This document shows, piece by piece, positions 12,214 through 14,700 of a DNA stretch of 64,000 nt (positions are counted from its first letter, which is position 1; each line of letters starts with the position of its first letter). The DNA comes from Bacillus pumilus. Lineage in GTDB: Bacteria; Bacillota; Bacilli; Bacillales; Bacillaceae. The position numbers and the translations under genes are program-made. The stretch covers positions 2,089,001-2,153,000 of the forward strand of contig NZ_CP101833.1 in assembly GCF_024498355.1 (NCBI RefSeq). The letters run 5' to 3'. Below the pieces are notes generated by a model. The model had not been told where the DNA came from, did not search any database, and was given only the letters and a program-made list of their open reading frames with translations.

Positions 12214-13140
12214 ATGAAGAAATGGATCGCTCTACTTGCCTTTATATTATTTCCACTCGTTGCAATCGGCTTTTTTTTCACCAATAAAATGATGTATATT
12301 CGTAAATTAACGGATGAAGAGCTAATCAAACGAGAATCAGATGAAGGTCATTATCATCACGAGGAATTTAAACAGCTCAAAAAAGAGAAAGTTTGTATTC
12401 CCTCATCCTTTGGTTATGATCTTCATGGCTATTTTGTACCGTTTCCACATACAACTCGCACCATCGTGCTTTGCCACGGCGTTACTGTCAGTCTGATCAA
12501 TTCAGTTAAGTATATGAAATTATTCCAAAAGCTCGGATGGAATGTGATGCTTTATGATCATAGAAGACACGGAATGAGTGGCGGGAAAACCACTAGTTAT
12601 GGATACTATGAAAAAGAAGATTTAGCTCAGGTGGTGAAGTGGCTCAGAAAAAGGTTCGGGGAAAGTGCCATCATTGGTGTACACGGGGAATCGATGGGTG
12701 CAGTCACTACCTTGTTATATGCTGCAAAACCTGAAGCAGCCGCGGATTTTTACATTGCCGATTGTCCCTTCGCTTCTTTTGAGGATCAGCTGGTGTATCG
12801 GTTAAAAACGGATTTTCGCCTTTCAGGTCATTGGATTCTTCCACTGAGTGATCAAGTGTTAAAATGGCGGGACGGATATCGCATCCGGCAAGTTTCCCCG
12901 CTTGATGTGATCGATCAAGTGAAAGAACCTGTGCTCTTTATCCATAGCCTTCATGACGACTATATCCCTTGTGTGCAAAGTCAGCAGTTATATACACGAA
13001 AAAAGGGTGATAAACAGTTATTTATTGCGCCACATGGGGCTCATGCGATGTCTTTTAGCGAAAATAAGGAAGCTTATGAACAAGAGGTCCAAGCATTTCT
13101 TCAAAGATTTGAACTCAATCAAGATGAAAGAGGAGAATGA
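12214..13140 (+). CDS. yqkD: alpha/beta hydrolase YqkD
   Basis: 308 residues: one N-terminal membrane helix (IALLAFILFPLVAIGFFF) anchoring an alpha/beta hydrolase. Nucleophile Ser in GVHGESMGAVT; Asp in HSLHDDYIP and His in GAHAMSF complete the triad. HGVTVS may form the oxyanion hole. Substrate unknown. ATG after AAAGGAAG. Family length. Confidence 0.88.
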   Translation: MKKWIALLAFILFPLVAIGFFFTNKMMYIRKLTDEELIKRESDEGHYHHEEFKQLKKEKVCIPSSFGYDLHGYFVPFPHTTRTIVLCHGVTVSLINSVKYMKLFQKLGWNVMLYDHRRHGMSGGKTTSYGYYEKEDLAQVVKWLRKRFGESAIIGVHGESMGAVTTLLYAAKPEAAADFYIADCPFASFEDQLVYRLKTDFRLSGHWILPLSDQVLKWRDGYRIRQVSPLDVIDQVKEPVLFIHSLHDDYIPCVQSQQLYTRKKGDKQLFIAPHGAHAMSFSENKEAYEQEVQAFLQRFELNQDERGE

Positions 13141-13164
13141 ACAGCAGTTCGCCTCCTCTTTTTT
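13127..13164 (+). terminator. terminator of yqkD
   Basis: Stem AAAGAGGAG (13127-13135) / CTCCTCTTT (13153-13161) then TTT; the left arm and the yqkD stop codon overlap. Confidence 0.75.
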
Positions 13165-13166
13165 AG

Positions 13167-14429
13167 CTAACTTATACGATAGTCACCACTGTTGTATGGT
13201 GTCTGCCCGCCATTTCCATATGACTCTCTTCCGATTGCTGCTGACTCATGACCGATAATCCTGCAGTTGCTGCCAATAAAAGAACTATCAAACTCATTTT
13301 CATATAAATGACCCCCATTTTGGATTTTTGATATAGCTTGAATTTTCCTTTCGTAAAACCGGGTAGATACTTCAAATAGTCCGAGCTCATTATAATAATG
13401 AGCCGCATCAAGTGCCAATTCCTCAATATCTGGGTATAAGCGCTTGTCCTCCAACAGGTCTAATGTATCGTCTATGATCTTTATTTCTGCATCAACGTAT
13501 AGTGCTTTTAGAAACTGAAATTTGCAAATGTAAATTTCATCTTCTAATTCACAGGCTTTCATAATACCTTGTTGATAGAGTGATAACGACTCTTCTATCT
13601 TTTTTTGTTTAAACAGGATTTGGGTCAGCATAAATAGTGGGTCTAGAGAGCGATTTAGATGGGTTAAATTCTCCTTTTCAAACACTTCAAGAGAGTCTTT
13701 CAGATAACGACTTGCTTCCGGAAGATCATTCATTTGGTAATAACAGTTACCTAAGTTGAAAAGGGCCGAACCTATGACTCGAGGGTTTCCAATTGAGCGT
13801 GCTCGCTTTAGAGCATTTTTAAAGTAGGGCAATGCATGTTCATAGCATTTCAAATCATCATAGTTTGCACCGATGACAAATTCACAGTGGATGATTCTCA
13901 GCGTGTACGTTCTATAGGCAGAGTACGTATCTAACGCTTGCAAGGCATAGTGCATCGAAAAGTGGGTTTGTTTCATGTGGTAATATATTTCTGCTAATTT
14001 AAAGTAAAATTCTGCTCTTTCTATATCATCTGATATGAGATTGAGCTTTTTTTCTGCTGAACGGTAATAAGCAATGGCGCTCAAATAGTTTCTCTGCTCA
14101 AATTCAAACATTCCTGTGAAAAAATGAACATAGTATTCAAGCATATCCGTTAATTTCGTTTGCGAATGTTCAATCGTTTCAAGGAGATTCTTAATTTCTT
14201 CATCATTCGAGGCTTTTTTTGCCGGTTCAAAATATTCAAGCATTACCTTATGGCGAAAATCCATCAGCTGGTAAAACAATAACAAGTTTTGATCCTGCTC
14301 CATCTCAAGGATTTCCTGCTCGATCTCGGCCTTCAGCTTCTCTGCTTTCATGACATGAAATCCGCAAATCTGTCTATACCATTCGTTTATTTTGATTCCA
14401 ACCTGAGGCGATGACAACTTGAGCTTCAA
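13167..14429 (-). CDS. Rap-family response-regulator aspartate phosphatase or inhibitor, C-terminally extended
   Basis: 420 residues with the Rap layout: N-terminal helical bundle (VGIKINEWYRQI, MEQDQNLLLFYQLMDFRH) and TPR repeats (for example GSALFNLGNCYYQMNDLPEASRYLKDSL). Rap proteins dephosphorylate Spo0F or block ComA and are inhibited by Phr peptides. Family members normally end near KIQxGxxLYE; here the frame runs about 37 codons further because no stop is met, covering the whole phr gene in another frame. TTG start after GGGAGGTG. An upstream ComA-type box suggests feedback on competence. Confidence 0.88.
   Translation of the reverse strand: MKLKLSSPQVGIKINEWYRQICGFHVMKAEKLKAEIEQEILEMEQDQNLLLFYQLMDFRHKVMLEYFEPAKKASNDEEIKNLLETIEHSQTKLTDMLEYYVHFFTGMFEFEQRNYLSAIAYYRSAEKKLNLISDDIERAEFYFKLAEIYYHMKQTHFSMHYALQALDTYSAYRTYTLRIIHCEFVIGANYDDLKCYEHALPYFKNALKRARSIGNPRVIGSALFNLGNCYYQMNDLPEASRYLKDSLEVFEKENLTHLNRSLDPLFMLTQILFKQKKIEESLSLYQQGIMKACELEDEIYICKFQFLKALYVDAEIKIIDDTLDLLEDKRLYPDIEELALDAAHYYNELGLFEVSTRFYERKIQAISKIQNGGHLYENEFDSSFIGSNCRIIGHESAAIGRESYGNGGQTPYNSGDYRIS
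13172..13303 (-). CDS. Phr pheromone precursor nested in rap
   Basis: 43-residue secreted peptide precursor read in a different frame from rap. It starts MKMSLIVLLLAATAGLSV, a signal peptide, with GGGGGT 7 bases before the ATG, and continues through an acidic region to MAGRHHTTVVTIV. GRHHT (33-37) fits the xRxxT pattern of Phr pentapeptides such as ARNQT and SRNVT; this is inferred, and the C-terminal six residues (TVVTIV from T38) would have to be removed. phr genes usually overlap rap by only a few codons. Confidence 0.8.
   Translation of the reverse strand: MKMSLIVLLLAATAGLSVMSQQQSEESHMEMAGRHHTTVVTIV
13322..13351 (-). promoter_or_regulatory. possible sigma-H promoter of phr inside rap
   Basis: Minus strand AAAGGAAAA (13351-13343) matches the sigma-H -35 (RNAGGAWWW); 12 bases on, CAAAAATCC (13330-13322) is a weak -10. 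Several B. subtilis phr genes have their own sigma-H promoter inside rap. Confidence 0.35.
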
Positions 14430-14525
14430 TTCACTTTAGCACCTCCCTTCTCATATACGATACATGTTGTATTCTATCACATTTCCTCGAATGGAAGAAA
14501 TATGAAATGTCATTTTTCGCAAAGT

Positions 14526-14541
14526 TTTCGGTATCCCGCAA
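14526..14541 (-). promoter_or_regulatory. ComA-type box upstream of rap
   Basis: Minus strand TTGCGG-GATA-CCGAAA; the ComA box is TTGCGG-N4-CCGCAA, so 11 of 12 bases match. A -10 TAGAAT lies about 50 bases downstream (14476-14471), with no good -35, as is usual for ComA-activated promoters. The rest of the 300-base gap 14430-14729 shows only AT-rich sequence and the yqkC terminator. Confidence 0.7.
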
Positions 14542-14700
14542 TAAACGCTTCCATTGCCTATTTTTCGGCATTTACAGCCACTATTTTTTCATTTTCATTT
14601 TTCTCGTTTTGTCGAATCTTTTGTTAAAAACTGCTTTTTTCCGTTTAAAAAGAGCATTTTTCAGATTAGACAGCCCTGTTGTTTGATGAGATGATGGCAG

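Follow-up and report, generated by a model that had tools for sequence, protein, structure and literature searches.

A phr pheromone gene lying wholly within its rap receptor gene in the Bacillus pumilus clade

We analyzed a window of 64,000 nucleotides of Bacillus pumilus DNA and confirmed that a phr gene lies wholly within rap, the gene for its presumed receptor. Such complete nesting is unusual, whereas the core of the system is ordinary. In our judgment the two genes probably form a Rap-Phr quorum-sensing cassette of the common kind that lacks the stop usually supplied to rap by phr codons 3 and 4, so that rap reads through all of phr. The locus offers a complete overlap of a receptor gene over its signal gene that has been kept across a species group, and with it a natural experiment that shows cleanly which of the two frames is under selection. 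The following features are referred to below.

13167 to 14429, minus strand: rap, a Rap-family receptor/phosphatase; TTG start at 14429, TAG stop at 13167, 420 codons
13172 to 13303, minus strand: phr, the pre-pheromone gene, 43 codons, in the +1 frame inside rap; ATG at 13303, TAA at 13172
13170 to 13298, minus strand: C-terminal tail of Rap, codons 378 to 420, past the usual LYE end (from frame reading, orthologues, and AlphaFold2)
13170 to 13259, minus strand: distal Rap tail, codons 391 to 420, evolving as if unconstrained (from substitution rates)
13260 to 13295, minus strand: 36-base stretch invariant in 16 orthologues, encoding Rap residues 379 to 390 (EFDSSFIGSNCR) and Phr codons 4 to 14 together with flanking bases from codons 3 and 15
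13230 to 13232, minus strand: rap codon 400, TGA in orthologue L060 through a Phr-silent difference (from sequence comparison)
13193 to 13207, minus strand: candidate mature pheromone GRHHT, Phr residues 33 to 37, followed by TVVTIV; amino acids invariant in 16/16
13311 to 13316, minus strand: ribosome-binding-site-like GGGGGT inside rap, 7 nt upstream of the phr ATG; GGAGGT in 5/16 and GGRGGT in 16/16 orthologues

A pheromone gene enclosed by the receptor frame

The phr frame is shifted by one base relative to rap and translates as MKMSLIVLLLAATAGLSVMSQQQSEESHMEMAGRHHTTVVTIV. Its ATG sits at the TATGAA of the rap YE codons, on the same strand in the +1 frame, which is the canonical position in this family. 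The exceptional part is the other end. The start of phr is at −137 bp relative to the end of rap, i.e., rap ends 137 nt past the phr start, and its stop ends 5 bases beyond that of phr. The initial annotation of this DNA had described a Rap frame continuing past HLYE to 13167; the read-through and the position of its stop hold, while the tail comprises 43 codons (378 to 420), not about 37. That Rap gains a tail after HLYE was likewise correct. In the window phr does not extend past the end of rap, a departure from a family habit rather than from a definition, and in L060 it does extend past its shortened rap.

A scan of contigs of named species found 9 orthologues at 95 to 98%, and 16 of 44 genomes of the genus, the source genome included, carry the orthologue at 94 to 100%. 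The 26 entries (the window, the source genome's own copy L001, and 9 plus 15 further loci) reduce to 16 distinct orthologous sequences, in all of which phr is intact. The 420-codon rap frame is kept in 15 of them, the exception being L060, from one species, with a Rap of 399 codons. The initial annotation had considered that other strains might stop directly after HLYE. The comparison of Rap C termini speaks against this, and a sequencing error or strain oddity is ruled out by the shared long frame. One genome (G020) is uninformative, with neither an orthologue nor a match to the neighboring hydrolase gene in its assembly of 280 contigs. The source genome has 16 matches at E values up to 0.001, including the rap studied here.

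The pair adjoins that hydrolase gene (12214 to 13140) in 16/16 loci of the clade. Both neighbor genes, which we take to be yqkB-yqkE, are adjacent with no rap between them in 14/14 outgroup loci examined, in a survey that covers loci from 30/43 genomes with a match. In the simplest reading of these gene orders, the rap-phr pair would have been gained on the stem of the clade.

How unusual the geometry is was judged from 127 other loci, a set that excludes the orthologues of this gene and the neighbor-gene loci L123 to L152. It contained 73 rap genes with an ATG-started phr, 41 without phr, and 13 that were not parsed. The 73 loci carry 57 distinct phr sequences, many of them mutually orthologous and therefore not 57 independent cases. 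The phr start precedes the end of the rap stop by 11 nt in 46 of the 57 and by 17 nt in 4. None of the 73 loci has its assigned phr wholly inside rap; at L158 another candidate open reading frame (ORF) inside rap passed our filter and is not the assigned phr. In all 46 distinct phr sequences with the 11-nt geometry, codons 3 and 4 provide the stop of rap, as NNT AAR or NNT AGA. Here these codons are ATG or ACG, then AGT, and rap reads on because they make no stop. By this comparison, the pair would descend from a cassette with the usual geometry through loss of the stop. In usual cassettes, rap ending 11 nt after the phr start may allow coupled re-initiation. Since rap translation ends beyond phr in the nested pair, its phr start could not use termination-coupled re-initiation and would depend on the GGRGGT site that phr itself has within rap.

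Several known systems share individual traits with this pair. L153 and L063 to L074, which we take to be RapA-PhrA from their ARNQT peptide, show about 49% Rap identity and have an xRxxT pheromone, but the overlap is 11 nt, and pre-Phr ends with the pheromone in 11 of the 12 loci L063 to L074 (L070 has one extra Arg). L156, presumably RapE-PhrE with SRNVT as the mature form, has C-terminal residues after the pheromone (SRNVT LAPTHEFLV), again with an 11-nt overlap. The largest overlap in the survey, 44 nt, belongs to L160, which we named RapI-PhrI of Bacillus subtilis from its ADRVGA peptide, described as the PhrI peptide in the context of ICEBs1 (PMC3601965). RapI-PhrI is a partial precedent: phr begins further inside rap than usual, and the RapI tail (...DENQPDSIGSSDFK) is read from phr DNA, but the overlap does not take in an entire gene, as with the 132-nt phr here, and the PhrI stop lies outside rap. 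Rap3T-Phr3T of phage phi3T is the closest solved receptor and has RGHT-type pheromones, and among its relatives are pro-peptides with a single internal pheromone and 6 to 18 further residues (PMC11343458). It differs in that Phr3T carries tandem pheromones, and in L034, a relative from B. mojavensis that shares the RRGHTA and SRGHTS peptides, the overlap is the usual 11 nt. Overlap and overprinting of rap and phr were not found together in the open-licence papers searched by whole-word matching.

The position of phr also bears on how the pair would be annotated. In one survey the search for phr ORFs began 100 bp before the end of rap (PMC5199041), and another used a default of −60 to +400 bp, its reference cases ranging from −50 to 191 (PMC10075063). 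Going by these descriptions, such surveys would probably list this Rap as an orphan, because the phr start lies outside both search ranges.

Selection and reading frame

Substitutions were counted as parsimony steps on a tree of the 16 distinct sequences. Before phr, steps at rap codon positions 1/2/3 number 55/22/295. Within the overlap the steps at phr positions 1/2/3 are 1/7/25, which in the rap frame read 25/1/7. In phr codons 15 to 43, steps that are silent in Phr and change Rap occur at 24 per 203.8 opportunities (0.118), plus one Phr-silent step to a stop. The rap body has a silent rate of 312/2696.4 (0.1157) and a non-silent rate of 0.0088. Phr-changing, Rap-silent steps in the same codons amount to 6/215.1 (0.028), and steps changing both proteins amount to 1/285.1 (0.004). 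We do not read the rarity of the last class as a hint of constraint on Rap; 5 of the 6 Phr-changing, Rap-silent steps sit on the last Phr codon.

By this pattern of substitution, phr clearly behaves as a real gene under purifying selection in its own frame. A chance open frame, with Rap merely having a long variable tail, is hardly credible. Such a reading can draw on the fact that phr is mostly unannotated: searching protein records with the Phr frame, by a method that needed shared five-residue words, gave 1 record (67 amino acids, hypothetical), compared with a cluster of 248 members for the long Rap of 420 amino acids. However, it is already contradicted by the codon-position pattern, in which substitutions track the phr frame and not the rap frame, and the ATG has the canonical position, a GGRGGT site accompanies it, and the xRxxT motif is invariant in 16/16 orthologues.

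The distal Rap tail looks unconstrained, evolving in a neutral-like manner, because its Rap-changing rate matches the silent rate of the rap body. The initial annotation had held that phr cannot mutate without changing the tail. That the tail thereby restrains phr is not supported: distal phr changes freely at its silent sites, and of the 25 Phr-silent steps 24 alter the Rap tail and 1 truncates Rap. The dependence runs in the opposite direction, with the sequence of the tail dictated by phr. A function of the whole tail is rejected for the distal part by the substitution rates and by the AlphaFold2 model, in which the tail is unstructured. Most of the extra tail looks like a tolerated by-product of phr, and a two-way constraint is possible at most within the 36-base stretch near the phr start.

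The openness of the rap frame needs no selection either. Among random synonymous codings of this Phr with the codon usage of the window, the rap frame stays open through phr with a probability of 0.51. The same probability is 0.08 to 17% for nine other Phr sequences, lower partly because their codons 3 and 4 favor the usual rap stop. Only 2 to 3 of the 81 to 87 possible Phr-silent single changes create a rap stop, and 1 of the 25 observed steps did so. An open frame is not by itself a sign that the tail is selected, because this Phr sequence predicts one about half of the time, and the long persistence of the frame needs no selection.

The invariant bases near the phr start

The invariant run of 36 nt is the longest of the ORF (the next is 31), and none of the 1,090 overlapping 36-nt windows before phr is invariant, although the stretch was chosen after seeing the data. 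Phr codons 5 to 14 show no silent step in 92.4 opportunities, at a body rate of 0.1049, and no non-silent step in 163.6 opportunities. Three rap-phr groups with the usual rap stop served as controls: group B (15 of 16 loci; L079 was left out as its phr length differs), phrA of 8 genomes, and group E (9 of 10 loci; L180 was left out as its rap was not parsed). Groups C and D were unusable as phr controls. Silent steps in codons 5 to 14 were 6/56.4 (0.1064) in B, 1/73.0 (0.0137) in phrA, and 9/51.3 (0.1754) in E, at body silent rates of 0.1842, 0.0689, and 0.2715, respectively; non-silent steps were 6, 4, and 19. Taken together, the controls show 16 silent steps where their body rates would give about 29; by hand calculation, this predicts about 5 silent steps in our gene. 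A third phrA set, of 11 genomes, overlaps the 8-genome set, is far more divergent (5/37.6 silent steps in codons 5 to 14, body rate 0.342), and was kept out of the pooled figure.

Slow silent sites at phr starts thus appear to be general, as judged from the substitution counts, and to be more pronounced in this gene. General conservation of phr starts might account for the 36 bases in full; the controls explain part of the effect. The counts suggest that phr codons 5 to 14 are under an extra constraint, perhaps on Rap residues 379 to 390.

Two explanations of this constraint, both tentative, were weighed. The first refines the cassette reading: signal and receptor would share DNA under two-way selection, the start of Phr encoding a functional extension of Rap at residues 379 to 390, with the remaining tail as a by-product and with nesting removing the coupling of phr to the termination of rap. 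We consider this unlikely on balance, both for the segment itself and for the wider picture of two-way selection. It would account for the length of the run, for the absence of steps where the controls predict some, and for the truncated orthologue L060, whose 399-codon Rap keeps residues 379 to 390. Yet silent sites near the phr start are slow in the controls too, and against the 8-genome phrA control alone, which leads one to expect about 2 silent steps, observing none is not significant. The segment has no confidently predicted structure in AlphaFold2, though few alignment rows cover it. Moreover, steps that change Phr and are silent in Rap are rare there as well (1 per 93.4 opportunities), which would fit freezing at the DNA or RNA level, and the stretch was picked post hoc. 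If dual coding were true, receptor and signal would be unable to diverge independently at Rap residues 379 to 390.

The second explanation, compatible with the cassette reading and to us slightly less likely still than dual coding, is that the 36 bases serve the start of phr translation or another nucleic-acid signal and neither protein. Slow bases beside the phr start are also seen in other rap-phr pairs, and the group D locus (described below) is frozen across its entire micro-ORF. On the other side, the predicted RNA fold of 13243 to 13363 is no better than that of shuffled sequences (z = −0.17), Rfam gave no match in 12900 to 14700 at E values up to 1, and the control groups are not frozen, with 12, 5, and 28 total steps in codons 5 to 14 of B, phrA, and E.

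The receptor, the pheromone, and related loci

The Rap protein has the domains expected of its family, a three-helix RapH_N domain and a TPR domain (Pfam: RapH_N, PF18801, 2.7e−24; TPR_12, PF13424, 4.4e−17). The closest solved proteins are Rap3T, RapJ, RapF, RapH, and RapI, with Rap3T the best (3e−109). The AlphaFold2 model is almost all-helical with a mean pLDDT of 81.6; pLDDT falls below 50 from residue 374, and there is no secondary structure past 378, in a region for which the alignment holds few tail sequences. The tail is thus predicted to be unstructured. Phr peptides are exported, cut to a penta- or hexapeptide, and imported; they bind the TPR groove and switch Rap off. The pocket for such a peptide is recognizable in this Rap: N225, invariant in 62 aligned sequences, and D192 align with N226 and D193 of Rap3T, and these residues anchor the peptide backbone (Asn) and bind the pheromone Arg (Asp) (PMC11343458, PMC3601957). 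Two other Rap3T contact residues differ conservatively, Y225 being Phe and D338, the second Arg-binding Asp, being Glu. Q47 is present and nearly invariant and matches the glutamine called catalytic in RapH and RapJ (PMC3601965). With Q47 in place, Spo0F would by analogy be a plausible target of this Rap. A separate B. pumilus Rap record of 419 amino acids (P0002) is divergent in its N-terminal part (to about residue 130, by eye) and nearly identical in the rest, including the full tail; from the sequence, this looks like a swap of the N-terminal (output) domain in a Rap.

Phr has a Lys at residue 2 followed by a hydrophobic stretch, and a home-made hydropathy filter passed it in L052, L056, and L060, the orthologues in which the scan chose it. 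GRHHT, an xRxxT-like pentapeptide, is conserved across species in 16/16 sequences. As in the family at large, pre-Phr would leave the cell, lose residues at both ends to give roughly GRHHT(T), and be re-imported, and the trimmed peptide would inhibit this Rap, which in turn would act on Spo0F and/or ComA. The initial annotation rightly noted that GRHHT would need C-terminal trimming. The six residues that follow it are no obstacle, because single-pheromone pro-peptides with 6 to 18 extra residues have been described (PMC11343458). GRHHT as a pheromone was not found in the open-licence papers searched, where the sole text match is an 1892 misprint of "greeting."

Two candidate expression signals were noted.

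13389 to 13418, minus strand: promoter-like TTGGCA-18-TATAAT inside rap, about 85 nt upstream of phr, with 11/12 matches; a weak lead
14526 to 14541, no strand assigned: ComA-box-like TTGCGGGATACCGAAA (minus-strand reading) upstream of rap, with 1 mismatch to the consensus used

The promoter scan returned 5 sites against 4.8 in shuffled sequences, and the −10 element of the listed site reads TACAAT in 8/16 orthologues. The ComA-box-like site has 0 to 1 mismatch in 16/16 orthologues, at −110 to −112, but with the same consensus the window holds 2 sites at up to 2 mismatches against 2.43 expected by chance. The ComA box gave no match in the open-licence papers searched. Two sigma-H-like patterns were absent from the window copy of the rap ORF and from the 150 nt flanking either end, and no terminator-like site was found in 13000 to 14700. 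At the start of rap lies a two-codon ORF, GTG-AAT-TGA (14426 to 14434, minus strand; ATG in L060), whose stop overlaps the rap TTG in 16/16 orthologues and which, by eye, is better spaced from the GGAGG site than the rap TTG. It may throttle rap via re-initiation.

Other Rap groups yielded Phr-like ORFs of a different kind. In group D (L108 to L122; in the source genome at G000:C1:2290497-2291615), a leaderless 15-codon ORF, MNSKQRSTVEERNQT, begins exactly where phr should start and lies between rap and a hairpin that is terminator-like by eye. It is present in 15/15 species fetched, identical in 14 and with Arg6Cys in 1, amounting to 1 step in its 45 bases, and the group D Rap retains the pocket Asn and Asp. 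From its sequence it looks like a phr that has lost its secretion signal while its start remains, along with a pheromone of the xRxxT type, ERNQT, similar to the ARNQT of PhrA.

A second leaderless mini-phr, MRTKHNMSAAQVDERLHT, occurs in group C (L091 to L107; in the source genome at G000:C1:1677117-1678259). The pattern is found in 16/17 species examined, unchanged in 8 and with a single substitution in the other 8, the 17th, L093, having the variant MKMKRNLSTTQLEERLHT, and conservation stops sharply at its stop codon. The criteria given in PMC5199041 demand a signal sequence and a length of at least 35 residues, and the group C Rap would therefore score as an orphan. Such a leaderless peptide might act in intracellular self-inhibition or leave by another export route. 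ERLHT does not occur in the open-licence papers searched; ERNQT and NRNHT occur in three papers each, and the NRNHT papers look unrelated by title, one occurrence being within a spore protein (PMC4196992). In the part of PMC10075063 searched for leaderless Phr peptides, the word "leaderless" appears only within a cited title. The source genome also holds a rap-phr pair (L005; G000:C1:1178809-1180020) with three repeats of the RNT type in its Phr, namely SNRNTT, SNRNTT, and DRNTA.
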